Shown: in pieces, positions 29,323 to 43,699 of the stretch | How the letters are laid out: the number at the start of each line of letters is the position of its first letter | Numbering within the stretch: the stretch's first letter is position 1 | Assembly (NCBI RefSeq): GCF_014197855.1 | Contig: NZ_JACIGJ010000019.1 | Coordinates: 1-54,664, forward strand | Reading direction: 5' to 3' | DNA: 54,664 nt | From: Roseospira marina | GTDB taxonomy: Bacteria > Pseudomonadota > Alphaproteobacteria > Rhodospirillales > Rhodospirillaceae | Position numbers and translations under genes: made by a program | Notes under the pieces: generated by a model | Database searches by the model: none | Told to the model about the DNA's origin: nothing | The model's input: the letters and a program-made list of their open reading frames with translations, nothing else

Positions 29323-31428
29323 ATGGGCCTCAAGCTGTCGGTGGCGGCCAAGCTGGTGACGGCCAGTGCCATCGTGTTGGTCGTTGGACTTCTGGTGGGC
29401 GGCCTGGTGCTGGCGTTGGAGACGCAATCGGAGACAGCCGCGCTGGCGCTGGGCGAGGGGCGCGCCATCGGAACCGCGATCGCGCGGGATATCCAGGCCG
29501 ATCTGGAGGAGGGGCTGGTTATCGCCCGCACCTTGGCGAAAACCTTCGAGACCTTGAAGGCGGAGGGCGACACGGACCGGGATGTGTTCGATGCCATCTT
29601 GCGCGAAACAATGGAACGCAACCCATCGTTGGCCGGGGCGTGGGCGGGGTATGAACCGAATGCCCTGGACGGGCAGGATGCGGCGTTTGCGGGCCGCGGC
29701 GACCGCACCGACGAGAGCGGTCGGTATATCACCTATTGGTATGACTTCGGCGATGCCAAAGGTCTGACCCTGTACCACCTGACCACGTTCGAGGCGGCAG
29801 GGGCGGCCTCCGCCTACTATCAGGTGCCCATGACCACCGGTCGGGAGTTCGTGACCGAGCCGACGGTGTACGACATTGAGGGGACGGAGGTGTTTCTGGC
29901 CTCGCTCGTTGTGCCCATCAAGGAGGGCGGCCGCACCATCGGTGTGGTGGGCGTGGACATGACGCTGTCCGATCTGTGGGAACGCATCGCGGACACACGA
30001 CCGCTCGGCACCGGATCGGTGTTCGTCATCTCACACGATGGCCGATGGGTGGCGTTGCCGGATGCGGCCGCGCGTGGCACGCCCGTCGTGGACGCCCTCC
30101 CGGCGCTGGAGGCCGCCCTGCCGGCCATTCAGACGGGGTCGTTCTTCGAGCTGGAGTCCGAAGGGATGCGCGACGGCGGTATCCTGGAGGACGCGGCGTA
30201 CACGCACCTATTCACGCCAATCCCCCTGGGTCGGACAGAGCTTCCCTGGTCCGTGATGGTGAACCTGCGCGACGCGGCGATCAAAGCCCCGGCGCAGCGT
30301 GTGGCGCTGATCCTGGCGGCGACCGGAGCGGTGCTTCTGGTCGCGCTGATCGGAGCGCTGGCGTTGGTCGGGCGCCAGCTCATCAACCGGCCCCTGAGCG
30401 CACTGGTTGGGGCGATCGGCGCAATTGAAGGCGGGAACACCGCGATCCCGATCGCGGGGCAGCAGCGAACGGACGAGGTCGGGGCCATCGCCCGGGCGCT
30501 CGAATCCTTCAAGGGCAATTTGATTCGCGTCCGCGAGATGGAAGCCGAGCGTCAGCGGGCCGAGACGGCCGCCGAGGCGGAGCGTCGTCGCGAACGGCTG
30601 AGCATGGCCGATACGTTCGAAACCTCGGTGGGGCAGATTCTCGGTCAGGTGTCCGGCGCGGTGAGCGATATGGATGCGGTGGCGCAGACCATGACACAGC
30701 GCGTGCAGACCCTGGATGGGCAGGCCACGGCTGTCGCCGCCGCCTCGGAGGAAGCCAGCACGAACGTGTCGGCGGTCGCGTCGGCGACGGAGGAACTGAC
30801 CGCCTCCATCGACGAGATCAGCGCTCAGGTCCAACGGGCGTCCACCGTGGCCACCGACGCTGTTGGTCAAGCTGAGGAAGCCGACCAGCGGATGGCGAGC
30901 CTAACGGACGTGGCGGACCGCATCGGGAAGGTGATCACCTTGATCACGGACGTGGCCAGCCAGACCAACCTTCTTGCGCTCAACGCCACGATTGAGGCGG
31001 CACGCGCCGGGGAGGCCGGTAAGGGCTTCGCGGTCGTCGCCAACGAGGTCAAGACGCTGGCCAACCAGACCGCCCGCGCGACGGAGGAGATCAGTGCGCA
31101 GGTCGGCGCCATCCAGTCCGAGACCCGGCACGCCGTCGTCGTCATCAAGACGATTTCCGAGACCATCGGCAGCATCAGCGAAATCGCCAACGCCATCGCG
31201 GCTGCGATAGAGCAGCAGGGCGCGGCCACCCGGGAGATCGCCCGCAACGTCCAGCAGGCCTCGGTTGGGACCCACGAGGTCTCGGAGACCATTGTCGGGG
31301 TCAGCCAGGAAACCGCCGCCAGTCGGGAGTCGGCCGAAGACGTCGGCACCGCGGCACGCCGTCTGGCGGATCAGTCGGCAGCGCTGCAGGCGCGGGTGCG
31401 GGAGTTCCTGGCCGGCATTCGGGCCTGA
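29323..31428 (+). CDS. Methyl-accepting chemotaxis protein with dCache sensor
   Basis: A 701-residue transmembrane chemoreceptor. Membrane segment 1 is at about 10-33 and is followed by a periplasmic dCache-type domain (about 35-325) containing [28 protein letters not shown] and [10 protein letters not shown], the ligand-pocket strands seen in amino-acid and amine sensors. Segment 2 is at about 328-350, then a HAMP domain (about 350-405) and a long signalling coiled coil with tip [20 protein letters not shown] and [12 protein letters not shown] that contacts CheA/CheW. No C-terminal NWETF-like pentapeptide for CheR docking is present. AGGGGGG precedes the ATG. No che genes are nearby. The ligand is unknown; the downstream acid-catabolism island makes a carboxylate tempting, but this is speculation. 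Confidence 0.94.
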
Positions 31429-31435
31429 TGCGGAG

Positions 31436-31467
31436 CGGCCCCTATCCCGCTCCCGGGACAGGGGCCG
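31436..31467 (+). terminator. Hairpin between convergent MCP and pdxA2 genes
   Basis: CGGCCCCTaTCCCG pairs with its complement around a short CTC loop with one mismatch, eight bases after the MCP stop. It could serve both convergent transcripts; T-runs are weak on both sides. Confidence 0.6.
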
Positions 31468-31512
31468 TTGGCCGCGGTTCGGCGTGGGTGGGCCGGGGCA
31501 ACGCCGACCGGG

Positions 31513-32523
31513 TCAGGCGGAGACGGTTTTGGGGGCCAGATCCACGGCGAGCTGAAGGGCCGTGACCAGACTGTCGTGGCGGGCGATTGCCTGGCCCGCG
31601 ATATCGAACGCGGTACCGTGATCGACGGAGGTGCGGATGATGCCGCCCTTCAGACCCACGGTGATGTTCACGCCGTCATCGATCGACATCAGCTTCACCG
31701 GGATGTGCCCCTGGTCGTGGTAGCAGGCCACCACCACGTCGAAATCCCCCCGCATGGCGCGGAAGAAAATGGTGTCGCCCGGCCAGGGTCCCGAGACGTT
31801 GATGCCGTCCTGCTTGGCGCGCGCGATGCCGGGTTCCAGCTTGGTCTCTTCCTCGTTCTCGCCGAACAGGCCGTGTTCCCCGGCGTGCGGATTGATGCCG
31901 CACACGGCGATGCGTGGCGCACCCAGACCCGCCCGCATCACGGTGTCGTGCGCCAGCTTGATCACCTGATAGGTCCGCTCCGGATTGATCCGGCGCACGG
32001 CCTCGATCATGCCGACATGGGTGGTCAGATGGATCACCTTCAGCTTCGGGGTTGCCAGCATCATGGAGTAGTCGGTGGTGCCGGTCAGGTCGGCGAGGAT
32101 TTCGGTGTGCCCGGCGAACAGGTGGCCGCCCTTGTGCAGCGCCTCCTTGTTCAGGGGCGCGGTCACGATGGCCCGGATGGTGCCGGCCTGGGCCAGCTCC
32201 ACGGCCACCCGAACGAACTCATAGGCCGCATGGCCGGCCTCGGCCCTCACGTCCCCATAGGGCAGCGCGCCGACCTCCAGGCCCGGATCCACGCAGGCGA
32301 CGAGCTTGGGCGACGTTCCGGCCAGATCGATGGCGTCGGGCGCCATCCGCCGGACGGCAAAGTCCGTCCCCACGAGATCGCGCGCCCGTTCAAGAGCCGC
32401 CGCGTCGCCGATCACCACCGGCTGGCTGAGTGCGTAAACCTTGGGGTCCATCAGGCTTTTGGCGATAATTTCGGGGCCGATGCCGCAGACATCCCCCATG
32501 GTAATGCCGATAACCGGTGTCAT
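31513..32523 (-). CDS. pdxA2: PdxA2-type 4-phosphohydroxy-acid dehydrogenase
   Basis: A 336-residue NAD-dependent, metal-dependent oxidative decarboxylase of the PdxA family. Visible motifs are ITMGDVCGIGPE, TAPLNKEALHKGG, metal-binding His residues in HLFAGHTEIL, HLTTHVGM and CYHDQGHIPVKLM, and TSVDHGTAFDIAG. True PdxA acts in pyridoxal phosphate synthesis. PdxA2 beside a DUF1537 kinase is known to oxidise 4-phospho-D-threonate (or -erythronate) to dihydroxyacetone phosphate and CO2. The ATG overlaps the kinase stop codon in an ATGA, so the catabolic role is strongly favoured. The open frame extends upstream across the kinase gene, but that is shadow. Confidence 0.9.
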   Translation of the reverse strand: MTPVIGITMGDVCGIGPEIIAKSLMDPKVYALSQPVVIGDAAALERARDLVGTDFAVRRMAPDAIDLAGTSPKLVACVDPGLEVGALPYGDVRAEAGHAAYEFVRVAVELAQAGTIRAIVTAPLNKEALHKGGHLFAGHTEILADLTGTTDYSMMLATPKLKVIHLTTHVGMIEAVRRINPERTYQVIKLAHDTVMRAGLGAPRIAVCGINPHAGEHGLFGENEEETKLEPGIARAKQDGINVSGPWPGDTIFFRAMRGDFDVVVACYHDQGHIPVKLMSIDDGVNITVGLKGGIIRTSVDHGTAFDIAGQAIARHDSLVTALQLAVDLAPKTVSA

Positions 32524-33845
32524 GGGTCGAGTCTCCCGTTGATCAAGAAATCCATTGCCTGGGCCAGGGACGCGGCGGTCCCGAAGCCTCCGGCTTTGGT
32601 GACGATGTGGCAGGCCGGACCCGTCGCCGTGCGCACCAGGGGAATCCCCGGCTCGATTGCCGCGATGAGGTCCAGGCTTCCGATGGCGGCGGCATCCATG
32701 ACCGCCCGCGCGGTTTCGCCCCCGGTCAGAACCAGGCGATCGACGGTCCCATCCTCTACCGTGCTGGCGGCGACCGCGCCCAGGCTGGCGGCAATCTCCC
32801 GCCCCACCCGGACGCGGGACCACCCGGGCACGTCGGCCTGAGCGGACAGGAACGCCGCACCGGCGGGATCGACCTCCGTGGTCAGCACCAGGGCCGGATC
32901 CCGCTGGGCGATCCGTGCGTGAAGGGCTGCCACGCAGCGGGCGATCTCCGTCTCGCGCGCGGCGCCGGCCGTCAGGATCTGCGCCGGGTCCAATAACACC
33001 GGGTCCGCCGACAGGTGCCGGGCCAAGTGGTCGATCTGGTCCCGGCTGGCGGGATGGACGCTGCCGATCACCAGCAACGGCGGCCGGTGTCCCTGGGCCA
33101 GATGGGGGATCTCCGGCGCGCCGGTCAGCCCCCATGCAGACGCCAGACTCGCGGCCAGCCCGGCCGATCCGACCCAGAGAATCTGCCCCGTCGCCTGCGC
33201 CTGCGCCTCAAGGCGTTGCCCGAACGCGGCGATCCGGTTCAGATCCTTCTCCTCGCGGCTGTCGAAGACCACGCACAACGGGGCCTGGCGGTGCAGGGCC
33301 TCCAACACGCGACGCTCCAGGGCGTCGGGATCCCGTGTGTCCTCCGACCCGACGGTCAGACAGGACGCAGCCGGCCGCCCCGCCGCGACCAGGGCTGTCA
33401 CGTTGGACTCGCGCACCGGCGTGGCCGGGTCGCGCGCGAACGCGGTGTCGGCCACCGGCACACCGTTTACCAACAGCCGGCCGTTCTCCACCGTCCGTCC
33501 CTGCGCCGGAAAGGCGGGAGCCACGAGGATCAGGTTAGCCCCCAACCCCCGAGCGGCCCCCGCCAGCTCGGCGGCGACCGGGCCGCGCAGGGTGGAGTCG
33601 ACCTTCTTGAAGACGTGGTCGATGCCGGCCGCCCGGAGCTCCGAAGCCACGGCTTCGGCCTTGGCTTCGGCGGCCTGCGGGCACAGGGGCCGCGTTTCGG
33701 TATCCAGGATCGCGACATCAAGGCCGGCCAGCTCGCCGGGCGACGGGGTGCCGAGAAAGACCCGGGCCGCCGCGCCCCGGGTTGCCATCTGCAACCCGCT
33801 GTCGTTGGCGCCGGTCAGGTCGTCGGCCATGATCGCGATCGTCAT
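32520..33845 (-). CDS. Four-carbon acid sugar kinase (DUF1537, DtnK/OtnK-like)
   Basis: A 441-residue ATP-dependent kinase. The N-terminal substrate domain carries ADDLTGANDSG, KKVDSTLRGP and PAFPAQGRTVENG. The C-terminal nucleotide domain carries VLTTEVDP, LVLTGGETARAV and TKAGGFGTAASL. Characterised relatives phosphorylate D-threonate, D-erythronate or 3-oxotetronates at O4. Translational coupling to the PdxA2-type enzyme points to D-threonate or D-erythronate 4-phosphorylation rather than the 3-oxo route, which would need OtnC/OtnI partners not seen here. It lies 43 bp downstream of the Fe-dehydrogenase gene in the same operon. The exact stereoisomer cannot be read from sequence. Confidence 0.9.
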   Translation of the reverse strand: MTIAIMADDLTGANDSGLQMATRGAAARVFLGTPSPGELAGLDVAILDTETRPLCPQAAEAKAEAVASELRAAGIDHVFKKVDSTLRGPVAAELAGAARGLGANLILVAPAFPAQGRTVENGRLLVNGVPVADTAFARDPATPVRESNVTALVAAGRPAASCLTVGSEDTRDPDALERRVLEALHRQAPLCVVFDSREEKDLNRIAAFGQRLEAQAQATGQILWVGSAGLAASLASAWGLTGAPEIPHLAQGHRPPLLVIGSVHPASRDQIDHLARHLSADPVLLDPAQILTAGAARETEIARCVAALHARIAQRDPALVLTTEVDPAGAAFLSAQADVPGWSRVRVGREIAASLGAVAASTVEDGTVDRLVLTGGETARAVMDAAAIGSLDLIAAIEPGIPLVRTATGPACHIVTKAGGFGTAASLAQAMDFLINGRLDP

Positions 33846-33888
33846 CGCGTCCTCCGCAGCGCCCCGAGGGGCGCGTTAAGACGGGCGG

Positions 33889-35019
33889 CTAATACGCCGC
33901 CTCGTACAGGGCCAGGATGTCCCGTTCGGACAGATCGCGCGGATTGAAATCCAGGAGCCGGCGGATGCCGTGGGCCTCCCGCGCCATGGTCTCCAGGTCG
34001 TTGGCGGGCACACCGTGGCCCGACAGCGTCATGTCGAGGTCGAGGCCCCGGCAGAAGGCCGCCGCCACGTCGCGGACTGCCGTCTCGGAGGTGGGATCCG
34101 CCTCGCCACCCAGCGCTTGGCAGATCCGCGCGGTCTTCTCGGGCACCGTCGAGGCATTGGCGGCGAGGGTGTGCGGGAAGATCAGGGCGTTTGCCAGCCC
34201 GTGGGGAATCTTGTGGCGGGTGCCGAGGGGGTAGGAGACCGCATGCCCGGCCGTGGTGTTCACCGGTCCCAGGCAGACCCCACCGTAGAAGGCCGCCAGG
34301 GACAACCCGGCCCGGGCTTCCAGATCGTCGCCGTTGCGGACGGCCTGGGGCAGGTACCGGCCCACCAGTTCGATCCCTTGCAGGGCGTAGCCGTCGATCA
34401 GCGGATGGGCGCGCTTGCTGGTGTAGGATTCGACGCAGTGGGCCAGCGCATCGATGCCCGTCGCTGCCGTCACCGCCGGCGGGACGCTCCGGGTCAGCTC
34501 GGGATCGATGATCACCAGGTCGGCGATCATATGCGGGCTTTCCGCCGCCATCTTGTTCAGGCTCAGGGGGTCGGTAATCAAGGCGCGGGTGCCCACCTCG
34601 CTGCCGGTCCCCGCCGTGGTGGGGATCTGCACCAAGCCGACCTCGCGGGCCGGCGCCCGGTTCGGCCCGACGATATCCGCCATGCCCTTCTCCGAACGCA
34701 ATAGAACGGCCACGATCTTGGCGAGATCCATCGCGCTTCCGCCGCCGAAGCCGATCACAAGGTCGGCGTCGCACGCACGGGCGGCGGTCAGGGCGGCCTG
34801 AAGATCGTTCAAGTCCGGCTCGGCCGCCATGTCGCTGAAGACCGCGGGCGCGCCGATCCCCAGCCGGTCGATCCGCGTGGCGTTGAAGGGATCGGACACA
34901 ACAAGAACCGTCCGAACACGGCGCGCCTCGAGCCACTCCGAAAGAGTTGTCAACTGGCCCGTCCCAAATCGCGTGGTCGTGGGGCGGAACATCTCCAGCG
35001 GGCGGTCCAAGCGCATCAT
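33889..35019 (-). CDS. Iron-containing alcohol dehydrogenase
   Basis: A 376-residue group III alcohol dehydrogenase that uses NAD(P) and Fe2+ to interconvert alcohols with aldehydes or ketones. Cofactor motif GGGSAMDLAK is at 92-101. Metal ligands are D190, H194 (GIDALAHCVESY), H259 (TTAGHAVSYP) and H273 (HKIPHGLAN). It is first in the minus-strand operon with the four-carbon acid kinase and pdxA2, so it probably handles an aldehyde or hydroxy-acid intermediate. Maleylacetate reductase is a related alternative, but no aromatic genes are near. ATG-ATG tandem codons occur at the start; GGAG lies seven bases upstream of the first. Confidence 0.92.
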   Translation of the reverse strand: MMRLDRPLEMFRPTTTRFGTGQLTTLSEWLEARRVRTVLVVSDPFNATRIDRLGIGAPAVFSDMAAEPDLNDLQAALTAARACDADLVIGFGGGSAMDLAKIVAVLLRSEKGMADIVGPNRAPAREVGLVQIPTTAGTGSEVGTRALITDPLSLNKMAAESPHMIADLVIIDPELTRSVPPAVTAATGIDALAHCVESYTSKRAHPLIDGYALQGIELVGRYLPQAVRNGDDLEARAGLSLAAFYGGVCLGPVNTTAGHAVSYPLGTRHKIPHGLANALIFPHTLAANASTVPEKTARICQALGGEADPTSETAVRDVAAAFCRGLDLDMTLSGHGVPANDLETMAREAHGIRRLLDFNPRDLSERDILALYEAAY

Positions 35020-35152
35020 GTCATGTCTCCGTTTTTCCGGCGGATGGCCACCGGAGGTCAGGGTTTGACCACCCTGCGATCGATAGAGCGCGATCCCCGG
35101 CGGAGCGGGCGCCGGTGGCGATCCACTCCAACCTCAAATACCCCAGAACACA

Positions 35153-35166
35153 AATTTGTCAAGGGA
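35153..35166 (-). promoter_or_regulatory. Candidate operator / -35 element shared with the aldolase promoter region
   Basis: Read on the minus strand, TTGACAAATT begins at 35162 and is followed by TGTG. The same ten bases followed by CGCG occur at 42634-42647, upstream of the HpcH aldolase gene. The core ACAAATTTGT here is a perfect 10-bp palindrome. Such a shared element would suit the cluster's GntR regulator, though TTGACA may simply be a -35 hexamer. Confidence 0.4.
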
Positions 35167-35362
35167 GCCATCCTTTCTGTCCATAATACGGTTTTAGGTG
35201 CCTGGCCTCACGCGGCAGCGCATTTAATAACGTAGGAATTTCAAGGTACTAATGGCTTTCTCCGTATTGATCTGTCTTTTTGCATGCCATTATCATTGAT
35301 GTCACGCAGAGGTGTTGGGCCCGCATCTCATGCTAAGAAACCAGGGCATTGTGAGCGGCTCG

Positions 35363-35378
35363 ATAGGACTAATCCTAT
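35363..35378. repeat. 16-bp dyad upstream of tctB
   Basis: ATAGGA and TCCTAT flank CTAA, giving a perfect six-base inverted repeat about 115 bp before tctB. Its size and position suit a regulator-binding site. Confidence 0.45.
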
Positions 35379-35491
35379 TTTCCTGGTGCTCTCTATTGAC
35401 AACTAGACCACTGGGCGGGAAGGATGGCGGCACGACGTGGGAAAGCCTCCCCGACACAAGGAGGGAGGTCAGCCGCACTGTGGGGTAGGAC

Positions 35492-36022
35492 ATGGTTGAA
35501 CGCCGCGCGGACACCTGGATCGGTTTCGGTCTTCTCGCTACCGTCGCCTTCATGGCGTGGCGCACGCTTCGCATTCCCTCGGTCGCGACGGGAACATCCG
35601 CCGGCCCCGATTTCATCCCCTGGGTGATGATCGGCGGGATCGCGGTGTTGAGCTTTGTCCTGATCATCCGGGCCCAGATCGCCGCTCGAAAAGCGGCTCC
35701 CGACGCCGCCACCCCGCAGGCGGACTCGTCCGGATCCGCCAGCGGTTCCGCCGCCGCTGACGCCGATGTCGCCGCCGAAGGCCTGGACCCGGCGCTGGCG
35801 CGGCGGATCACGCTTCGAATCTTCGCCTTTATCGCCCTGCTGGTCGGCTACGCCGCCGTCTTCATGCAGGTCGGCTATCTGGCGTCGACCTGCGGCGTCT
35901 TCATCATCGGCATGTATCTGCTCGGTGAGAGGGGGTGGCTCTCCCTCATAGTGCTGCCGATCGCCATCACCACCGGAATCTACTTCGGATTCACGGAGGT
36001 TCTCGCGGTCTGGCTTCCGTGA
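35492..36022 (+). CDS. TTT transporter small membrane subunit, TctB family
   Basis: A 176-residue protein with about four membrane segments (near 12-28, 46-64, 105-125 and 128-165) and a Ser/Ala-rich hydrophilic loop at about 70-95. TctB is the poorly conserved four-helix subunit of tripartite tricarboxylate transporters, which use a periplasmic binding protein and ion gradient to import carboxylates. Assignment rests mainly on the following TctC and TctA genes. It is first in the plus operon. GGGG six bases before the ATG serves as the ribosome site. Confidence 0.85.
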   Translation: MVERRADTWIGFGLLATVAFMAWRTLRIPSVATGTSAGPDFIPWVMIGGIAVLSFVLIIRAQIAARKAAPDAATPQADSSGSASGSAAADADVAAEGLDPALARRITLRIFAFIALLVGYAAVFMQVGYLASTCGVFIIGMYLLGERGWLSLIVLPIAITTGIYFGFTEVLAVWLP

Positions 36023-36079
36023 CGCCGCATCAGCCACCGTCCGTCACATTGAAACCAGAACAAACCTTGGGAGGACATC

Positions 36080-37051
36080 ATGTCCATTTATAAATCCTTG
36101 GCCCTTGGCTTCACCGCTCTCGTCGCGTTCGGCGGCCCGGCGGCGGCCGCCGACTTCCCGGTGCGTCCCATTCAGGTCATCGTGCCGTATTCGGCCGGCG
36201 GCGGCACCGATCTGTCGGCCCGCATCATGGCGGACGTTTTCAAGAAGCACGTGGACGGCGGAACCATCGTCGTTCGTGACCAGCCCGGTGGCGGCGGCGC
36301 TATCGGCACCAGCGCCGCCCTGCACGCGCGGCCGGACGGCTACACCCTCGGCACCGGGTCCCAGGGGCCGCTCGCCCTGCTGCCGCATTTCGGCGGCACC
36401 GACTACAGCCTCGACGATGTCCAGTTCATCGGCATGATGGGGTGGAACCTGAAGCTGCTGGTGGGCTGCAAGGACGCGCCCTTCTCCAATTTCGAAGAGA
36501 TGATGGACTACGCCCGGGACAACCCGGGTCAGCTTCAGATCGGCAACTCCGGCGCTGGCGGCGCGGATCACATCGCCATCGAGGCCTTCGCCAAGGCCGC
36601 CGACGTTGATCTGGAGCCGGTGCCCTTCAATGGTGCATCCGAGGGCATGACGGCCTGCCTCGGCGGGCATATCGACGCCATGACGTCGACCCCCTCTGAA
36701 GCCCTGCCGCACGCGCAGTCCGGCGCCGTCACGCCGCTCTTCATCATGAGCGACAAGCGCATCCCGGACTACCCGGACACCCCGACGGCCATCGAAGGGG
36801 GCGTGGATTTCACCTGGGCCTCCTGGAAAGGCATCATCGCGCCCAAGGGCCTGCCTGAGGATGTGCTGGCCACGCTGAAGGATGCCTTCAAGGCCACGTT
36901 CACCGACCCGGACTTCGTCTCCAAAATGGAAGAGATGGGTGAGTTCGTCGAATACCGGGACGGCGACGCCTACCGGGCGCTGGCCGAGCGCGACAGCAAC
37001 CTTGCCAAGGAGGTCATTCAGGACCTCGGCATGTACGGAATGAACAAGTAG
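36080..37051 (+). CDS. TTT transporter periplasmic binding protein, TctC family
   Basis: A 323-residue exported solute-binding protein. A signal peptide (about 1-23, cleavage after AAAA before DFPVRP) is followed by the Bug/TctC signature strand VRPIQVIVPYSAGGGTDLSAR, QPGGGGAIGT, GNSGAGGADHIAIEAF and GHIDAMTSTPSE. These proteins bind carboxylates or hydroxy acids through the two glycine-rich loops. GGGAGGA four to five bases upstream gives a strong ribosome site, matching the high expression expected of a binding protein. It lies between tctB and tctA, and a strong hairpin follows. Confidence 0.94.
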   Translation: MSIYKSLALGFTALVAFGGPAAAADFPVRPIQVIVPYSAGGGTDLSARIMADVFKKHVDGGTIVVRDQPGGGGAIGTSAALHARPDGYTLGTGSQGPLALLPHFGGTDYSLDDVQFIGMMGWNLKLLVGCKDAPFSNFEEMMDYARDNPGQLQIGNSGAGGADHIAIEAFAKAADVDLEPVPFNGASEGMTACLGGHIDAMTSTPSEALPHAQSGAVTPLFIMSDKRIPDYPDTPTAIEGGVDFTWASWKGIIAPKGLPEDVLATLKDAFKATFTDPDFVSKMEEMGEFVEYRDGDAYRALAERDSNLAKEVIQDLGMYGMNK

Positions 37052-37070
37052 TCCACTCTGTTCATTGCCC

Positions 37071-37107
37071 GCGGCGGCCCCGGCACACAGCGTATCGGGG
37101 CCGCCGC
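37071..37107 (+). terminator. Intra-operon hairpin between tctC and tctA
   Basis: A perfect 12-bp GC-rich stem (37071-37082 with 37096-37107) has a 13-base loop and is followed by a pyrimidine-rich stretch with CTCTTT. Hairpins after binding-protein genes commonly stabilise that part of the mRNA or partly terminate it, giving more binding protein than membrane subunit. Confidence 0.75.
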
Positions 37108-37146
37108 CCTTCGCCTCTTTCCTGAGCCCGCTTCTCCGGTGGTGCC

Positions 37147-38658
37147 ATGGACATCCTGCAATACATCGCCCCCGTCTTTTCCCTTGAGGTCATGCAAGTC
37201 ATTGCCTTGGGGACCCTCGGGGGCATGATCATCGGGGCCTTGCCGGGGCTCACCGCCACCATGGGCGTGGCCCTGTTGATCCCGCTGACGTTCGGCATGG
37301 AGCCGGTCCTTGGCCTGAACATGCTGATCGGCATTTATATCGGCGGCATCTACGGCGGCTGCATCTCGTCCATCCTGTTGCGGACGCCCGGAACACCGGC
37401 CTCGGCGGCGACGTGCCTGGACGGGTATCCGCTGGCGCAGAAGGGGCAGGCGGGCAAGGCGCTGGCCATGGCCACCATCGCCTCGTTCGTCGGCGGCATT
37501 TTTGCGGCGGTCGTCCTGGCGACACTGGCCCCGCAGCTTGCGGCCATCGCGCTGAAGTTCGGCCCGGCCGAGTACTTCGCGCTGGCCCTGTTCGGCCTGA
37601 CCATCATCGCCTCGCTGTCCGGCGACTTGGTCAAGGGCGCGATCGCAGGCCTCCTCGGCGTTCTGATTTCGACCTTCGGGGCGGATCCCATCTCCGGGAC
37701 GCTGCGTTACACGTTCGGTGTCTCCGGCTTCGCTTCTGGGTTTGCGTTCACGCCCGCCCTGATCGGTTTGTTCGCGTTGTCCGAGGTCTTCGTCCAGATC
37801 GAGAAGATCCTCGTCGACCGGAAGGCCGACGTGGTGAAGGTTTCGGGCAGCTGGCCCAGTGGCAAGGATCTGCGCAGTTCGGTGCCTGCCCTGATCCGGG
37901 GCTCCGTGATCGGCACGATCCTGGGGATTGTTCCGGGCACCGGCTCGGGTACCGCATCCTGGATCGCCTACAACGAGACCCGGCGCAGTTCCAAGACGCC
38001 GGAGCTGTTCGGCACCGGTCACATGCCGGGCGTGGCGGCCACCGAAAGCGCCAACAACGCCGTCTGTGCCGCCGCGCTGATTCCGCTGCTCGCCCTGGGT
38101 GTGCCCGGTGACGTGGTCACCGCGGTGATGATGGGTGGCCTGATGATCCATGGTCTGGCGCCGGGACCGGTGCTGTTTCAAACCCGGCCGGACATCATCA
38201 TCGGCATGTTCGCGGGCACGTTCCAGGCGACCATTTTCATGTTCATCTTCGGCATGCTGGGGATCCGCCTGTTCTCCCGCATCCTGTTGATCCCCAAGCG
38301 CCTGCTCGTGATGAGCATCGTCGCCTTCTGTTTCATCGGCTCGTTCGCGATCAACCTGAACGTGGTCGATCTCTACACCATGGTCGGGTTCGGCGTGCTG
38401 GGGTACGGCATGCAGAAGTTCGGCTTCTCCCAGGCCGCCCTGTGCATCGCCCTGATCCTGGGGCCGATGGCGGAATCCAACCTGCGGCGCGGCCTGCTGC
38501 AGACCCACGACAACCTTGTCGACTTCCTGTCCGGCCCGATCACGCTTGTGTTCCTTGGCCTGACGGTCTTGTCGCTCGCGTGGCCCCTGATCCGTGGCGG
38601 ACTGGCCCGCCGCCGGGCGGCTGCCGCGAATACGACCCAGCAAAGGGTGCTTCTATGA
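37147..38658 (+). CDS. TTT transporter large membrane subunit, TctA family
   Basis: A 503-residue inner-membrane protein with about eleven or twelve hydrophobic segments. The N-terminal repeat has GLTATMGVALLIPLTFG and GGIYGGCISSILLRTPGTP, and the second repeat has LGVPGDVVTAVMMGG, both TctA hallmarks that form the inverted-repeat transport core. It works with the TctB and TctC proteins encoded just upstream to import a carboxylate by ion symport. Its stop overlaps the next gene's start (ATGA), coupling transport to the catabolic enzymes. The substrate is not evident from sequence. Confidence 0.95.
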   Translation: MDILQYIAPVFSLEVMQVIALGTLGGMIIGALPGLTATMGVALLIPLTFGMEPVLGLNMLIGIYIGGIYGGCISSILLRTPGTPASAATCLDGYPLAQKGQAGKALAMATIASFVGGIFAAVVLATLAPQLAAIALKFGPAEYFALALFGLTIIASLSGDLVKGAIAGLLGVLISTFGADPISGTLRYTFGVSGFASGFAFTPALIGLFALSEVFVQIEKILVDRKADVVKVSGSWPSGKDLRSSVPALIRGSVIGTILGIVPGTGSGTASWIAYNETRRSSKTPELFGTGHMPGVAATESANNAVCAAALIPLLALGVPGDVVTAVMMGGLMIHGLAPGPVLFQTRPDIIIGMFAGTFQATIFMFIFGMLGIRLFSRILLIPKRLLVMSIVAFCFIGSFAINLNVVDLYTMVGFGVLGYGMQKFGFSQAALCIALILGPMAESNLRRGLLQTHDNLVDFLSGPITLVFLGLTVLSLAWPLIRGGLARRRAAAANTTQQRVLL

Positions 38659-39563
38659 GAACCGCGGAGTCCTATGTCGCGCTCGTCACCTGCTTCAATG
38701 CGGACGAGAGCATCAATTACCCGGCCACGCGCGCGCAGGTGCGCCGACAGGTGGCTGCCGGGAACAATATCCTCTGCGCCGGAACCAACGGGGATTTCAC
38801 CGCCCTGACGTTCGAGGAAAAGGTGACCCTGACCGAACAGGTGGTCGAGGAGGCCGCCGGCAAGGTGAAGGTCATCGTCAACGCCGGCATGCCGGCGACC
38901 TACGAGACCGTCCAGCTCGCCAAGGCCTTCGACCGCATCGGCGTGGCGGGCATCGCGGTCATCACGCCGTTCTTCATCGCCTGCACCCAGGATGGCCTGG
39001 TTCGCCATTTCAGCACCGTGGCCGACGCCGTGAACAGCCCGGTCTACCTGTACGACATTCCGGCGCGGACCCAGAACCACATCGAGCCGGAGACGGCCCG
39101 GACCCTGGCGGCGCATGGCAACATCGCCGGCATCAAGGACAGCGGCGGCAAGAAGGACACCCTGGAGGCCTACCTTCAGGTTTCCAAGGAGACGACCGGG
39201 TTCGATGTCTATTCCGGCCCGGACTCCCTGGTGCTCTGGTCCTGCCAGAACGGCGCCAAGGGATGCATTTCCGGTCTGGGCAACGTGATGCCGGACGTGC
39301 TGGCCGGCATCGTCGGCGCCTTCAACGCCGGCGACATGGACGAGGCGGCCCGTCAGCAGGACCGGTTCACCGCCCTGCGCACCGACCTGTACGCGCTCGG
39401 CTACCCGCCGGCGATGGTCAAGCGGGCGCTCTACGTCATGGATTCCAGCGTCGGCGCCAGCCGCCAGCCCGCCCTGTTGCCCGATCCGGCGCAGGACGCC
39501 CAGATCACGGCGATCCTCAAGGCTCACGATCTGCTGCCGACGGAGCAGGAGGCCCTGTCATGA
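38655..39563 (+). CDS. DapA-family (class I) aldolase/dehydratase
   Basis: A 302-residue TIM-barrel lyase/synthase of the dihydrodipicolinate synthase superfamily. Visible are CAGTNGDFTALTFEEK (substrate loop), the catalytic Tyr in YLYDIPART, and the Schiff-base Lys in AGIKDSGG. The family includes aldolases and dehydratases acting on 2-oxo acids. This one is not the biosynthetic DapA, judging by context: it is translationally coupled to tctA upstream and to a 2-hydroxyacid dehydrogenase downstream. I infer that it cleaves or dehydrates a 2-oxo acid derived from the imported compound. The exact reaction is open. Confidence 0.88.
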   Translation: MRTAESYVALVTCFNADESINYPATRAQVRRQVAAGNNILCAGTNGDFTALTFEEKVTLTEQVVEEAAGKVKVIVNAGMPATYETVQLAKAFDRIGVAGIAVITPFFIACTQDGLVRHFSTVADAVNSPVYLYDIPARTQNHIEPETARTLAAHGNIAGIKDSGGKKDTLEAYLQVSKETTGFDVYSGPDSLVLWSCQNGAKGCISGLGNVMPDVLAGIVGAFNAGDMDEAARQQDRFTALRTDLYALGYPPAMVKRALYVMDSSVGASRQPALLPDPAQDAQITAILKAHDLLPTEQEALS

Positions 39564-40534
39564 CCACGATTGCAACCACCTCGCCCGGCTTCGGCCGGTA
39601 TGGCCGCGTGCCGACCCGGATTAAAGAAAACGGGTGGGAGTTCATCCGCTGCGCCGACAGCACCAAACCTGATGGCGGCTTGTCGGACTGTATCGACCGG
39701 ATTGATTTCCTGGTGGCCGGTCTGGTGGCCGTCACCGGCAAAACCCTGGACGCGGCCCCCAAACTGAAGGCGGTCCTGAAGCACGGTGTCGGCGTTGACA
39801 GCATCGATATTCCCGCCTGCACCGCGCGCGGCATTCCGGTGCTGAACACCCCCGGCGCCAACGCCAATGCGGTGGCCGAGCTTGCGTTGGGGATGATGTT
39901 TGCCCTGGCCCGCAACATCCCCGGCGGTCACAAGAGCGTGGTCGAGGGGGGCTGGGACCGTCAGGCCGGGTTTGAGATCGACGGCAAGACCCTGGGCATC
40001 GTCGGCCTGGGCAACATCGGGCGGATGCTGGCGGCCAAGGCTCAGGCTCTGGGCATGACCGTCGTCGCCACTGACCCCTACGCCGATCCGGCCTTCGTCA
40101 AGGAGCTTGGGATCGAGCTGCTGGATCTGGAGGCCTTGCTCGCGCGCAGCGACATCGTCTCCCTGCATGTCTTCGGCGGTGCGGCCAACACGAACCTGAT
40201 CAACGCCGACACGCTGAAGCTCATGAAAAAGACCGCGTGCCTGCTCAATCTGGCCCGGGGCGAAGTGGTCGACCTGGACGCGCTCGACGCCGCGCTGGCG
40301 GCCGGCGCTCTGGGGGGCGCCGGGATCGACGCCTACACCGTGGAGCCGCCCGATCGCAGCCATCCGATCTTTTCCCGCCCGAGCGTTGTGTTCACCCCGC
40401 ATTCCGGCGCGGACACCCTGGAGGCGTTGGAGCGCGTCGGTCTGATGAATGTGGCCGATATCGAGGAGATGCTGGCGGGCGGACGGCCGAAACGGGTTCT
40501 GAACCCGGAGGTGTTCAACACGGCGGCCGAATAA
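39560..40534 (+). CDS. D-isomer-specific 2-hydroxyacid dehydrogenase (SlcC/SerA-like)
   Basis: A 324-residue NAD-dependent oxidoreductase with the catalytic set R233 (NLARGEVVD), E262 (AYTVEPP) and H281 (TPHSGADT), and cofactor loop GLGNIG at 149-154. The family reduces or oxidises 2-hydroxy acids at C2, including phosphoglycerate and (S)-sulfolactate. ATGA overlap ties it to the DapA-family gene upstream. An Ldh_2-fold dehydrogenase of generally opposite stereopreference follows 52 bp later, so the two may together funnel both enantiomers of one acid to a shared 2-oxo acid. The ACT domain of biosynthetic SerA is absent, arguing against serine synthesis. Confidence 0.92.
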   Translation: MTTIATTSPGFGRYGRVPTRIKENGWEFIRCADSTKPDGGLSDCIDRIDFLVAGLVAVTGKTLDAAPKLKAVLKHGVGVDSIDIPACTARGIPVLNTPGANANAVAELALGMMFALARNIPGGHKSVVEGGWDRQAGFEIDGKTLGIVGLGNIGRMLAAKAQALGMTVVATDPYADPAFVKELGIELLDLEALLARSDIVSLHVFGGAANTNLINADTLKLMKKTACLLNLARGEVVDLDALDAALAAGALGGAGIDAYTVEPPDRSHPIFSRPSVVFTPHSGADTLEALERVGLMNVADIEEMLAGGRPKRVLNPEVFNTAAE

Positions 40535-40586
40535 GCCGTCACCCGGGCCGGTCGATCGCCGGCCGTCTAAAACATGGGAAAACACC

Positions 40587-41645
40587 ATGGTTATCGGATC
40601 CCCCCGCTATGATGCCCACGCCCTGCGGGGCATGGCGCACGCCTTGTTCACGGCCGCTGGGCTTGAGGTCGACAAGGCCGCCGCGGTGGCCGAGTATCTC
40701 GTCGAAGCGGATCTCATGGGGCACACCACCCATGGCCTCGCCCTTGCGGGCTGGTACCTGCAAGGCGTCGCCGACGGCGTCGTGACCCGGTCCGGCGCGC
40801 CCGACGTGACCTCCGATCGCGGCGCGGCCGTCCGCTGGGACGGCCGCCGCCTGCCTGGCGCCTGGCTGACCGCCCAGGCCGTCACCCTGGCGTGCGACCG
40901 GGCCGTCCAGTTTGGCACCGCCACCGTCGTCGTGGCCAACAGCCACCATATCGGCTGTCTGGCGGCGTATCTCTCGATTGCCACCGACCGCGGCTACATG
41001 GTCTCGGTCGCCAGTTCCAGCCCCTCGGGTCAGCAGGTGGCGCCGTTCGGGGGGACGAAGGGCCTCTATACGCCCAACCCCATCGCCTACGGCATCCCCA
41101 CGCCGGGCGATCCGATCCTGATCGACATCTCGGCCTCCATCACCACGGTGAACATGGCGAACCGTCTGATCAAGGCCGGCCAGACGTACGATCATCCCTG
41201 GCTGATGGACAAGGACGGCACCCCGAGCCAGGACCCGCAGGTCCTGAAGGACGGCGGGACGCTGCTGCCCACGGGCGGGCTCGATCACGGCCAGAAGGGT
41301 TACGGCATGGCCTTGCAGATCGAGGCCTGGACCCAGGGGCTCGGCGGCTATGGCCGGGTCGACGCCCCCAAGGGTACCAACGCGGCCGTGACCGTTCAGG
41401 TGCATGACCCGGCGGCGTTCGGCGGCGCCGAGGCGTTCCTGCGCCAGACCGGCTGGCTGGCCGACGCCTGCCATGCCAACCCGCCGCGGCCCGGCGTTGC
41501 CCGGGTTCGGTTGCCGGGCGAGGCGGCGCTGGCGCGCAAGCGCGAGGCCTTGGAGAGAGGGGTCGCGCTGTTCGAGGGTATCCTTGAGTCCCTGGAGCCG
41601 CACGCGGCCCGTCTGGGCGTTCCGCTGCCGACGCCGGTGGCGTGA
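40587..41645 (+). CDS. Ldh_2 (malate/L-lactate dehydrogenase family) oxidoreductase, ComC-like
   Basis: A 352-residue NAD(P)-dependent dehydrogenase of the non-Rossmann Ldh_2/MDH2 family. Typical motifs are GHTTHGLALAGWYLQ (substrate side), the NSHHIGCLAAY active-site His segment, a Gly/Pro-rich TPNPIAYGIPT and DHGQKGYGMAL. Relatives oxidise malate, ureidoglycolate, 2,3-diketogulonate and (R)-sulfolactate (ComC). As the last gene of the plus operon it sits beside a SerA-fold 2-hydroxyacid dehydrogenase, suggesting two enantiomer-specific routes to one keto acid. The downstream GntR gene is convergent. Confidence 0.92.
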   Translation: MVIGSPRYDAHALRGMAHALFTAAGLEVDKAAAVAEYLVEADLMGHTTHGLALAGWYLQGVADGVVTRSGAPDVTSDRGAAVRWDGRRLPGAWLTAQAVTLACDRAVQFGTATVVVANSHHIGCLAAYLSIATDRGYMVSVASSSPSGQQVAPFGGTKGLYTPNPIAYGIPTPGDPILIDISASITTVNMANRLIKAGQTYDHPWLMDKDGTPSQDPQVLKDGGTLLPTGGLDHGQKGYGMALQIEAWTQGLGGYGRVDAPKGTNAAVTVQVHDPAAFGGAEAFLRQTGWLADACHANPPRPGVARVRLPGEAALARKREALERGVALFEGILESLEPHAARLGVPLPTPVA

Positions 41646-41728
41646 TCCAGTGCCCCTCCGGCCGGCGCTCGTTTCGGATCGGGCGTCCGGCGCGGAGGGG
41701 TGGGGGAGGGCGATGCCCGGCCGACCGG

Positions 41729-42469
41729 TCAGTCGCGCATCGTGAGGTCCAGGGCTCCGGCGCCGAACAGCCGGTCACGGGAATTTTTCACATGCTGGCG
41801 CATGATCTCACGAGCCCGGTCCCCATCCTGATCCAGGATCGCCTGATAGATTCCGGTGTGTTCGGCGAGGACCTCATTGAGCGCAAAGGGGCCATCGCTG
41901 AGCAGCGATTCCCCGTGCATTTTCATGCCGGCGTGAATGTGTTCGCGCAGCGCCCGCATGGTGGCTTCGTAGTATTGGTTGTTCGACGCCCGCGCCACCG
42001 CCACATGAAAGGCATAGTCGGCGTCCTCGCGGTGCACCTGGGACCCGGTGGCGACGCGCAGCATCTCCAGGGCCGCTTCCAGGTCGGTCATGACCTCTCG
42101 GTTGCGCCGCTGCGCCGCCAGCCAGGCCGCGTCGCTTTCGATGGTCATGCGAAATTCGTAGCACCGCTGAATGTCGGCAATGGTTTCAACACGCGCAAAG
42201 CCAAGTGCCGAACCCTGTGGCGCCCGAACGTAATTGCCGGAGCCTTGTCTCGAGTACACGAATCCTTCGGTGCGGAGCTTTTCCAGCGCAATCCGAAGAA
42301 TTGGACGCGAAACGCTGAACTCCTGTGCGAGTTCTTTTTCCGTCGGGAGTTTTTGATTGGCGGGATATTCGCCATTCGTAATTCTGGCATAGAGCATGTG
42401 ATAGACGCGGTCCGCCAGGGCACTGCGGGGCCGGCTTCGCTCCGGCTGCGCGGGCTGTCCGTCCATCAT
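41729..42469 (-). CDS. GntR-family regulator, FCD (FadR) subgroup
   Basis: A 246-residue regulator. The N-terminal winged helix (about 18-82) includes YARITNGEYPANQKLPTEKEL, EFSVSRPILRIALEKLR and SRQGSGNYV. The all-helical FCD ligand domain (about 95-230) has metal-coordinating residues around FHVAVARAS and EHTGIYQAI. Members usually repress catabolic operons and release DNA on binding a carboxylate. It is convergent with the Ldh_2 gene and divergent from the HpcH aldolase gene, within the catabolic island, so it very likely regulates this cluster. Candidate binding dyads lie in the divergent gap (42470-42688). Confidence 0.93.
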   Translation of the reverse strand: MMDGQPAQPERSRPRSALADRVYHMLYARITNGEYPANQKLPTEKELAQEFSVSRPILRIALEKLRTEGFVYSRQGSGNYVRAPQGSALGFARVETIADIQRCYEFRMTIESDAAWLAAQRRNREVMTDLEAALEMLRVATGSQVHREDADYAFHVAVARASNNQYYEATMRALREHIHAGMKMHGESLLSDGPFALNEVLAEHTGIYQAILDQDGDRAREIMRQHVKNSRDRLFGAGALDLTMRD

Positions 42470-42554
42470 CTCCTTCGTTCCTTACGCCTGGGCCCCCGTT
42501 CGGGCCAAACAATTGGTAAACCTGTTGAATGTAGTCGGGCAAGAAACCGGCTTT

Positions 42555-42582
42555 GTGTTAGATCCTGTCTAAAACGTATAAT
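42555..42582 (+). promoter_or_regulatory. Candidate promoter with embedded operator for the aldolase gene
   Basis: TATAAT at 42577-42582 matches the -10 consensus exactly, and TTGTGT at 42553-42558 is a weak -35 at 18 bp. Between them lies the dyad TTAGA-TCCTG-TCTAA (42558-42572). A repressor bound there would block the promoter. The GntR gene diverges from this region. Confidence 0.5.
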
Positions 42583-42633
42583 ATTCTCAGGGCATTGTGT
42601 CCAGAGATTTGTATCTGCCAACGGGCATTCCTG

Positions 42634-42647
42634 TTGACAAATTCGCG
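42634..42647 (+). promoter_or_regulatory. TTGACAAATTCGCG, copy of the divergent-operon element
   Basis: Identical in ten bases, and differing only by two transitions over fourteen, to the element at 35153-35166 on the minus strand. It lies about 40 bp before the aldolase start and includes TTCGCGAA, an 8-bp palindrome just downstream. No good -10 follows at 17 bp, favouring an operator role. Confidence 0.4.
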
Positions 42648-42688
42648 AACCCCACAGCATGGCCCCCCGCGGGCCCAGAGGACCAATC

Positions 42689-43516
42689 ATGAGCACCACG
42701 ACGTCGATACCGGCCTCCGGCCACCCGAAGCCCCTCTCGTTCGCCGAGCGGCTTCGCGCCCGTGAACGCATGATCGGCTACTGGACGCAGCTACCGGTTC
42801 CGGCCGTTCAGGAGCGCATCGCGCGCCATGGATACGATTACGTCTGTTTTGACGCGCAACATGGCTTCCATGACTATCACGCTGTTCTGAACGGGATGAT
42901 CGGCATCGAGGCCGGGGCCGCCCTTGCGGGCAGCGCCTGCGGAGGCATGGTCCGGGTCGCGGAAAACAGCATCGCGGTCATCGGCCAGGCGCTGGACGCG
43001 GGGGCGCGCGGCGTCATCGTGCCGCTGATCAACACCGCCGAAGAGGCCAAGGCCGCCGTTGCGGCCTGCCGGTACCCGAGCGGCGGGGGCATGCGGTCCT
43101 ACGGTCCGATGCGCGCCGGCCTGCGCTCGGGACCGGAGACCGCCGTCATGAACGTGGAGGTCGCCTGCATCGTCATGATCGAAACCCGGCAGGGGTTGGC
43201 GAACGTCGAGGAGATCGTCGCCACCCCGGGCATTGATGGTCTCTACATCGGGCCGATGGACCTGATGCTCGCCCTGGGTGGGAGCACCATCAACGATCCG
43301 TCGAAAGCGGAGGACTTCGAGGGCGCGCTGGCCCGGATTCTGGCGGCCGCGAAGAACGCCGGCGTGGCTGCCGGCATCCACACCATGGCCGGGGACATCG
43401 CGGCGAAGCGCCTGAATCAGGGCTTCACCTTCGCCTCGGTGTCGTCGGATCTGAACCACCTGGACAAGGCCGCCGCGGAACACCTGAAAACCGCGCGCCT
43501 CGCCCTGGTGTCGTAA
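42689..43516 (+). CDS. HpcH/HpaI-family class II aldolase
   Basis: A 275-residue TIM-barrel aldolase that uses a divalent metal to cleave 4-hydroxy-2-oxo acids to pyruvate (or an analogue) and an aldehyde. Seen: GYDYVCFDAQHGFHDY, MVRVAENS, metal-ligand Glu in IVMIETRQGLANVEEI, and GIDGLYIGPMDL with its Asp. AGAGGA six bases before the ATG at 42689 supports that start over the ATG at 42659. It lies divergent from the GntR gene and is probably part of the same regulon, splitting a 2-oxo acid made by the island's dehydrogenases. The native substrate is unknown. Confidence 0.92.
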   Translation: MSTTTSIPASGHPKPLSFAERLRARERMIGYWTQLPVPAVQERIARHGYDYVCFDAQHGFHDYHAVLNGMIGIEAGAALAGSACGGMVRVAENSIAVIGQALDAGARGVIVPLINTAEEAKAAVAACRYPSGGGMRSYGPMRAGLRSGPETAVMNVEVACIVMIETRQGLANVEEIVATPGIDGLYIGPMDLMLALGGSTINDPSKAEDFEGALARILAAAKNAGVAAGIHTMAGDIAAKRLNQGFTFASVSSDLNHLDKAAAEHLKTARLALVS

Positions 43517-43699
43517 CCCCCGGCAGCCCGGACCTCGGAGCTTTTTGCGGCAACTTTTGAGGGGACATCGGGGTCACCCAAAAGGCTTTCGCACACGGCG
43601 GAAACCGGGGTTGGGGCTGTCCGGGGCCATCAGCGGCGCCCGAAGTCGGTTCGGCCGCGGGGGGACGCGGATCTTTGGCCCGCCTATGGGCATGTCGAC

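Follow-up and report, generated by a model that had tools for sequence, protein, structure and literature searches.

In the D-threonate pathway, reportedly described by Zhang et al. in PNAS in 2016, the DUF1537-family kinase DtnK is followed by the dehydrogenase PdxA2, whose step leads to dihydroxyacetone phosphate (DHAP). DHAP is also the end product of the L-threonate/D-erythronate pathway of OtnK and OtnC, and the glucarate route runs through the aldolase GarL, the reductase GarR and the kinase GarK. According to PMC10971088, which cites DtnK, DUF1537 kinases act on four-carbon (C4) sugar acids. Here, we analyze an island of eleven intact genes at 31513–43516 of a Roseospira marina contig (NZ_JACIGJ010000019.1, the window, 54,664 nucleotides), in which a DUF1537 kinase, a PdxA-family dehydrogenase and an iron-type alcohol dehydrogenase (Fe-ADH) stand divergently from the genes for TctB, TctC and TctA of a tripartite tricarboxylate transporter (TTT), a DapA-type lyase, and SerA-type and Ldh_2-type dehydrogenases, followed by a GntR/FCD regulator and an HpcH-type aldolase. 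Our favored reading, held tentatively and at somewhat under even chances, is that the island serves as a single catabolic cassette for a seven-carbon (C7) 2-oxo-3-deoxy acid or its 2-hydroxy form, ending in pyruvate and DHAP.

Compared to the D-threonate pathway, the island has the same kinase and PdxA families in tandem and the same predicted last two steps to DHAP, but it adds DapA, Fe-ADH, SerA, Ldh_2 and HpcH upstream, and neither its kinase nor its PdxA reaches the curated cut-off. With the L-threonate/D-erythronate pathway, it would share C4-acid phosphorylation and a nearby TTT importer, whereas its kinase reaches only 131.7 of the 350 bits set for OtnK, and no OtnC or OtnI is seen in the island. 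That pathway is represented on another contig of the same genome (C17), where both OtnK (578.9 bits, cut-off 350) and OtnC (278.6 bits, cut-off 250) pass; TTT genes, a PdxA-family gene and a DeoR-like gene lie beside them (L141, 2990–10278). An aldolase, an aldehyde-acid reduction and a kinase are common to the D-glucarate/galactarate pathway, to whose GarL/HpaI models the island HpcH is nearest; that pathway uses a C6 substrate and a glycerate kinase, while we propose a C7 substrate and DUF1537/PdxA, such that our route would be a C7 analogue of it. In sialic acid catabolism (sialidase, NanA lyase, YhcH anomerase, sodium/solute symporter [SSS]), the likeness lies with relatives of the island, which encode a sialidase-fold hydrolase and a DapA/NanA-family lyase and, in Pantoea, also YhcH and SSS proteins. 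The downstream enzymes of the cassette are, however, C4-acid enzymes, and a sialidase-fold ketosidase of sialic-acid-type ulosonate catabolism is present in relatives and absent from the island genome.

As the first-pass annotation of the window had proposed, no described pathway with this gene set was found in the open-access literature, and the chemical job of the cassette seems not to have been established so far.

Conservation of the cassette as one unit

The best 80 of 130 relatives in an Ldh_2 protein scan of named genomes were kept as loci and compared with the island proteins and flanking controls. Within ~10 kb of Ldh_2 in the strong subset (56/80 loci, Ldh_2 of at least 480 bits), we observe SerA1 or SerA2 in 55/56 loci (including one split SerA, in L056, counted by hand), PdxA in 49/56, DapA1 or DapA2 in 49/56, Fe-ADH (at least 300 bits) in 40/56 and a sialidase-like BNR_2 gene in 37/56, whereas five flanking control genes occur in 0/56; a sixth, the PotA ATPase, was left out of the count, as ABC (ATP-binding cassette) ATPases match widely. 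DUF1537, GntR and HpcH are found in 17, 15 and 6 of the 56, respectively; the counts for the first two are probably too low, given that kinases in the relatives are diverged and shorter (e.g., 341–367 residues) and that the stretches end ~10 kb away. Pairing in the 56 loci is strict, with DapA1 occurring only with SerA1 and DapA2 only with SerA2. Only one of the 24 loci with a weaker Ldh_2 carries the set (L088).

The two arms are one unit. The earlier proposal that both serve one acid, delivering triose phosphate and pyruvate, is thus well supported at the level of the unit, by this co-conservation and by a TTGTCAA-type site in both promoter regions. The proposed set of eight enzyme families holds only in part: the conserved core is DapA, Fe-ADH, DUF1537 and PdxA, as follows from the shared content of annotated replicons, and SerA, Ldh_2 and HpcH are optional. 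In a larger comparison of 105 stretches (104 loci and the island; Fe-ADH limit of 120 bits), DapA occurs with Fe-ADH and/or PdxA in 73, which we refer to as core loci, and with both in 66, in eight of which Fe-ADH is partial or divergent (120–300 bits).

The cassette is shared by many bacteria of soil or plant association. The relatives are mostly from Rhizobiales and Rhodobacterales, with others from Azospirillum and Caballeronia, and versions of the cassette are seen in rhizobia, Agrobacterium, Azospirillum, Methylobacterium, Caballeronia, Pantoea, Paracoccus and roseobacters. Among annotated replicons, Chelatococcus, Rhizobium TCK, Roseivivax, Salipiger and Roseinatronobacter have Fe-ADH opposite TctBCA–DapA–SerA–(Ldh_2), with GntR, DUF1537 and PdxA. 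The stretches from Sinorhizobium meliloti pSymB, Agrobacterium fabrum pAt and Rhizobium leguminosarum combine an Opp/Dpp-type ABC importer with DapA, BNR_2, PdxA, Fe-ADH, GntR and DUF1537, and no SerA or Ldh_2 is annotated in them. In S. meliloti, strain ml45 shows the full cassette, and strain 2011 has a homologue of the hydrolase on its megaplasmid (NC_020560.1). In Pantoea, Azospirillum B510 and Caballeronia, an SSS symporter takes the importer's place. Azospirillum TSH58 has a single gene run, DUF1537–PdxA–FeADH–DapA–BNR_2, which in B510 is similar but with the SSS gene in between. Fe-ADH adjoins DUF1537 in the island and PdxA in several relatives. The labels in the annotated records seen are generic, except for a D-threonate 4-phosphate dehydrogenase in Pantoea.

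In the plasmid collection, BNR_2 matches 297 records and Fe-ADH 276, with near-equal numbers by genus (BNR_2/Fe-ADH): Rhizobium 128/129, Sinorhizobium 78/78, Agrobacterium 17/17, Ensifer 9/9 and Neorhizobium 5/5. At these limits, the exceptions among the genera listed are Pantoea, with only BNR_2 (27), and Roseomonas, with only Fe-ADH (9). In TSH58, recombinase and transposase genes adjoin the cassette (L146, 1–6580), a possible transfer route.

An accessory island

The Roseospira marina genome (4.60 Mb in 57 contigs, 98.57% complete) carries the cassette between a gene for a methyl-accepting protein (29323–31428) and one for an ABC permease (44571–45614). Orthologues of both flanking genes lie on one contig of a same-genus genome (G004), where only 703 bp separate them (L137, 8828–9530). 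DNA alignment with G004 ends at 31437 and picks up again at 43762, placing the limits of the island at 31438–43761, and the right-side alignment likewise stops at 43764–43776 in three further genomes (G001, G002 and G003). As only ~0.7 kb occupies the same site in a genome of the same genus, this is a 12.3-kb accessory island. A SerA protein search of 148 genomes, our own included, gave 14 matches at 1e-60, of which eight are strong (E ≤ 3e-127). Besides the island itself, these comprise six genomes from a single other genus of the family and one genome from a different family. Among five other genomes of the same genus, only G003 matches, and weakly (42%). The cassette is therefore patchily distributed.

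A diverged kinase–dehydrogenase pair

The DUF1537 kinase of the island (32520–33845, minus strand; Pfam SBD_N 166.6 and NBD_C 111.9 bits) finds its best NCBIfam DUF1537 model in the D-threonate kinase (NF047819, 240.8 bits), below the cut-off of 450 and ahead of 3-oxo-tetronate kinase (131.7) and a third model (59.6). The same model is best, also below cut-off, for the kinases of Chelatococcus (121.3 vs. 64.3 and 21.5) and Cereibacter (L054, 113.5 vs. 61.2), as well as for those of Azospirillum B510, Caballeronia, Methylopila (L025) and G082. The adjoining PdxA-family protein (31513–32523, minus strand; PF04166, 330.9 bits), predicted to be a C4-acid 4-phosphate dehydrogenase/decarboxylase, passes only the generic pdxA model and reaches 324.4 of the 583 bits set for D-threonate 4-phosphate dehydrogenase (NF002891). 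That cut-off is exceeded by the PdxA of the Pantoea cassette (L115, 665 bits), alone among the relatives' PdxA proteins scanned (L104, L054, L115, L117, L025 and L098).

Across the 17 loci listed, the island PdxA is 43–51% identical to its counterparts, as against 54–86% for other island genes, and the island DUF1537 shows 27–42% identity in tblastn pieces. In 384 further genomes of the class, this DUF1537 had no match at 1e-45, and in plasmids it had none at E ≤ 1e-30. Judged by its sequence, the island DUF1537–PdxA pair is a diverged substitute. That the kinase/PdxA step is kept though the genes have been exchanged argues that the step belongs to the pathway. The whole genome contains three PdxA and three DUF1537 genes, and the island PdxA is thus not the sole copy.

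Relatives vary in the form of this pair. In Caballeronia sp. SBC1, a plasmid gene (L117, 7037–9343) encodes a fusion of DUF1537 kinase and PdxA of 768 residues, which ties the two steps together physically. The kinases of L112, L119 and L146 are short (341–367 residues) and match both DUF1537 Pfam domains partially, while the island kinase is full-length (441 residues). In Methylopila turkensis (L025, 640–4826), a DeoR regulator, PdxA, a DUF1537 protein resembling D-threonate kinase (169.5 bits) and a KdgT-type permease form a possible C4-acid uptake group; the cassette genes adjoin it, and no second DUF1537 or PdxA is seen in that stretch.

Two front ends: a TTT importer or a sialidase-fold hydrolase

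The adjacent genes for TctB (35492–36022, plus strand; PF07331, 56.5 bits), TctC (36080–37051, plus strand; PF03401, 163 bits) and TctA (37147–38658, plus strand; PF01970, 508.4 bits) encode the small membrane subunit, the periplasmic binding protein and the large membrane subunit of a TTT importer. A cassette TctA occurs in 18/73 core loci, of which 18/18 have SerA and 1/18 the BNR_2 hydrolase, whereas BNR_2 is found in 48/55 core loci without a TTT importer and in 9/10 without SerA. All six TTT loci retrieved with the Ldh_2 query contain SerA. Ldh_2 itself is found in 9/18 TTT loci, and two of the other nine (L097 and L101) lie on contigs that break off directly after SerA. This alternation of importer and hydrolase is a clear trend only. 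SerA and BNR_2 would then offer two routes to one 2-oxo acid, the former starting from a 2-hydroxy acid and the latter from a ketoside.

The predicted structure of a BNR_2 protein (L019; predicted local distance difference test 90.1) folds like sialidases of glycoside hydrolase family 33 (1eur and 1eus, template modeling [TM] scores of 0.70–0.77). Sialidases of this type dominate the best 50 PDB fold matches shown, with 1eur at TM 0.71/0.77 and 16% identity, and identity to the sialidases among the fold matches listed is 12–16%; searched by sequence, BNR_2 has no match in the PDB. No signal peptide is obvious by eye in the 36 BNR_2 starts listed, and an invariant E-x-x-Y pair (E358 and Y361 of L019; 18 sequences) is suggestive only. 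The hydrolase in relatives points to a 2-oxo-3-deoxy (ulosonic or ulosaric) acid as the substrate, and not to a simple C4 acid. The BNR_2 genes labeled "exo-alpha-sialidase" in rhizobia, Agrobacterium and Azospirillum (L112–L118, L146 and rhizobial plasmids) sit in these acid-sugar cassettes and are probably not true sialidases. In Pantoea ananatis, a YhcH-family gene (L115, 12115–12585) lies inside the cassette, near the SSS symporter and adjoining the sialidase-like gene, as in sialic-acid clusters; its product passes the generic family model and scores 96.6 of 160 bits for N-acetylneuraminate anomerase.

Proposed pathway and substrate

From the family assignments, we infer a set of reactions, their order and a substrate. 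The cassette probably imports and degrades an unusual plant-type sugar acid, with TctBCA predicted to bring in the free acid. The SerA-fold dehydrogenase (39560–40534, plus strand; 2-Hacid_dh_C, 180 bits), D-specific by fold, and the Ldh_2-fold dehydrogenase (40587–41645, plus strand; Ldh_2, 260 bits), L-specific by fold, would yield the 2-oxo acid by oxidizing either epimer at its 2-hydroxy group; in relatives with ABC- or SSS-type importers, the sialidase-fold hydrolase would instead free the 2-oxo acid from a ketoside. The roles of SerA and Ldh_2 are the weakest point of this scheme, since the two enzymes suit C2 epimerization as well as the oxidation of a 2-hydroxy acid on entry.

The DapA-type lyase (38655–39563, plus strand; DHDPS, 187.8 bits), and HpcH with it, would cleave the 2-oxo-3-deoxy acid to pyruvate and a C4 aldehyde-acid. 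It is of type DapA1, a member of the class I DapA/NanA fold with a Schiff-base Lys, a Tyr and a GTxG loop in the motifs GTNGD, YDIPAR and GIKDSGG, each residue being kept in 38 or 39 of 39 DapA1 sequences. Lys, Tyr and an Arg of the carboxylate-binding type, whose roles we take to be those known from DapA, are present in 39/39, and the DapA of Pantoea and Azospirillum keeps the Arg as well. The HpcH/HpaI-type aldolase (42659–43516, plus strand; HpcH_HpaI, 111.3 bits) is accessory, its nearest models being GarL and HpaI, all below cut-off (NF007849 136.5 of 393; TIGR03239 133.1 of 406.75; HpaI 133.8 of 368.8). GarL and HpaI cleave C6–C7 2-oxo diacids.

Fe-ADH (33889–35019, minus strand; Pfam Fe-ADH, 123.1/153.4 bits) is predicted to reduce the C4 aldehyde-acid to a C4 aldonate, most likely D-threonate, which the DUF1537 kinase would phosphorylate at C4; PdxA would then oxidize C3, with loss of CO2, to give DHAP. 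A C7 2-oxo-3-deoxy diacid is suggested because DapA lyase and alcohol dehydrogenase alone yield a C4 aldonate only if the released C4 aldehyde already bears a carboxylate.

A natural compound that would fit both chain length and stereochemistry is 3-deoxy-D-lyxo-2-heptulosaric acid (Dha) of plant rhamnogalacturonan-II. In Fischer projections worked out by hand, C3–C4 cleavage of Dha retains C5 (left) and C6 (right), and the product is D-threonate once the aldehyde is reduced; the known case of 3-deoxy-D-manno-octulosonic acid (Kdo) to D-arabinose served as a check of the derivation. Dha is named in PMC12168206. We consider Dha itself a possible substrate, though on balance an unlikely one: the sialidase-fold enzyme would free Dha, DapA would split it into pyruvate and D-threuronate, Fe-ADH would reduce the latter to D-threonate, and DUF1537 and PdxA would produce DHAP and CO2, with the TTT version of the island taking the free acid or its 2-hydroxy form.

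On this reading, the intermediates should include both D-threuronate and D-threonate. Knowing the substrate would allow five enzyme subfamilies to be named together and would plausibly explain why rhizobial megaplasmids carry "exo-alpha-sialidase" genes; if the acid is Dha, root-associated bacteria would have a specific catabolic trait tied to the pectin of plant cell walls.

Several observations weigh against a single C7 route. No island enzyme reaches the NCBIfam cut-off of its assigned role: no functional model is passed by the island dehydrogenases, lyase or kinase, and their sequence relatives in the PDB are at superfamily level only. The matches of the kinase include no NCBIfam model for D-erythronate kinase, which makes D-erythronate possible as the C4 acid. 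DUF1537 is seen in only 32/73 core loci under a best-match rule that also misses the Caballeronia fusion; the annotation of the Pantoea stretch lists none, and that of the Roseomonas stretch lacks PdxA as well. The alternative lyase DapA2 lacks the carboxylate Arg in 27/27 sequences and may handle a different aldehyde, a poor fit to a single diacid substrate for all relatives. No BNR_2 hydrolase is encoded in the island's own genome, and its TTT system could thus take up a substrate other than that of ABC-type relatives. For the alternation of TTT and BNR_2, the Fisher P of 3e-10 overstates independence, given related loci and biased sampling: 11/18 TTT loci were fetched with a SerA query (six with Ldh_2, plus the island itself), and the hydrolase query supplied 6/10 loci without SerA. 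Finally, SerA and Ldh_2 may have their place at another step, for instance as a pair that epimerizes C2.

Alternative readings

The last of these points leads to an alternative that we regard as rather improbable, in which SerA and Ldh_2 would act at C2 to turn D-erythronate into D-threonate via the 2-oxo acid, DUF1537 and PdxA would carry the product to DHAP, and DapA and Fe-ADH would be a side entry. It would account for the adjacency of D- and L-type 2-hydroxyacid dehydrogenases, whose folds we take to be the same two as those of SlcC and ComC. A two-component SlcC/ComC racemase has been proposed for sulfolactate, as cited in PMC12421959. Ldh_2 was, however, not found with SerA in the nine TTT loci noted above (L097 and L101 being the contig-end cases), and the partners of DUF1537–PdxA in several relatives are DapA and Fe-ADH, not SerA or Ldh_2.

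We give a similarly low probability to a 2-oxo-3-deoxy heptulosonate with an aldose end, from which DapA would release a C4 aldose that a short-chain dehydrogenase/reductase (SDR) or Fe-ADH oxidizes to the aldonate before phosphorylation. SDR genes recur beside the Pantoea, Azospirillum and Caballeronia cassettes, and the missing carboxylate Arg of DapA2 would suit such a substrate, but the island contains neither an aldehyde dehydrogenase nor an SDR, and the Arg is kept in DapA1 and in the Pantoea and Azospirillum DapA.

Equally doubtful is a mosaic reading, in which DUF1537–PdxA would serve D-threonate and SerA–DapA a separate 2-hydroxyacid, as independent routes with only a regulator and a neighborhood in common. 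The divergence of the island DUF1537–PdxA pair from the remaining genes and the similar pair in the Methylopila DeoR–KdgT group are consistent with this; on the other side, the 66/105 stretches that unite DapA with Fe-ADH and PdxA include species without SerA or Ldh_2 in the stretch and single gene runs.

Plain use of D-threonate or D-erythronate was rejected, as it leaves DapA and Fe-ADH unexplained and OtnK/OtnC are encoded elsewhere in the genome. Sulfolactate degradation of the slc/com type (TTT importer, SlcC and ComC, then SuyAB or Xsc), whose transporter class and two dehydrogenase folds are presumably those of the island, was likewise rejected as highly improbable: DUF1537 and PdxA would have no role, Ldh_2 scores 112.7 of the 500 bits set for L-sulfolactate dehydrogenase (NF040650), and the island's genome gives zero matches to PF04295 (SuyB family) and a best Xsc score of 272.4 of 676.4, in searches that did not extend to CuyA and sulfopyruvate decarboxylase.

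Gene organization, regulator and neighboring genes

All genes named in the first-pass annotation are present and intact, in the order and on the strands given there, and all eleven proteins have Pfam support above the curated cut-off. Three starts needed correction, to 32523 for PdxA, 39560 for SerA and 38655 for DapA. The stop and start codons of DUF1537–PdxA, TctA–DapA and DapA–SerA overlap as ATGA, and the two arms are tight operons on this basis.

The GntR/FCD regulator (41729–42469, minus strand; FCD 86.9 and GntR 72.3 bits) co-diverges with Fe-ADH (r = 0.91, 24 loci). A candidate operator for this regulator, of the TTGTCAA type, lies in the divergent promoter region (35149–35162), and a second copy with two mismatches lies between GntR and HpcH (42634–42647), both proposed from sequence similarity alone. 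The site resembles those in L105, L106, L059, L113 and L114 (2–3 mismatches), while in L104, L107 and L112 every match has four mismatches, and L108, L109 and L054 show no match.

Genes resembling FAH/2-keto-4-pentenoate hydratase lie beside the cassette in two loci (L105, 13027–13788; L116, 12212–12976) and, with an SDR, could form a diketo-hydrolase bypass of DapA. A Halomonas record without annotation (L144) contains an Ldh_2 relative. On a Paracoccus yeei plasmid (L145, 1–10732), another Ldh_2 relative is found among genes for L-arabinonate dehydratase and 5-dehydro-4-deoxyglucarate dehydratase, with a gene for 3-deoxy-manno-octulosonate cytidylyltransferase further along.

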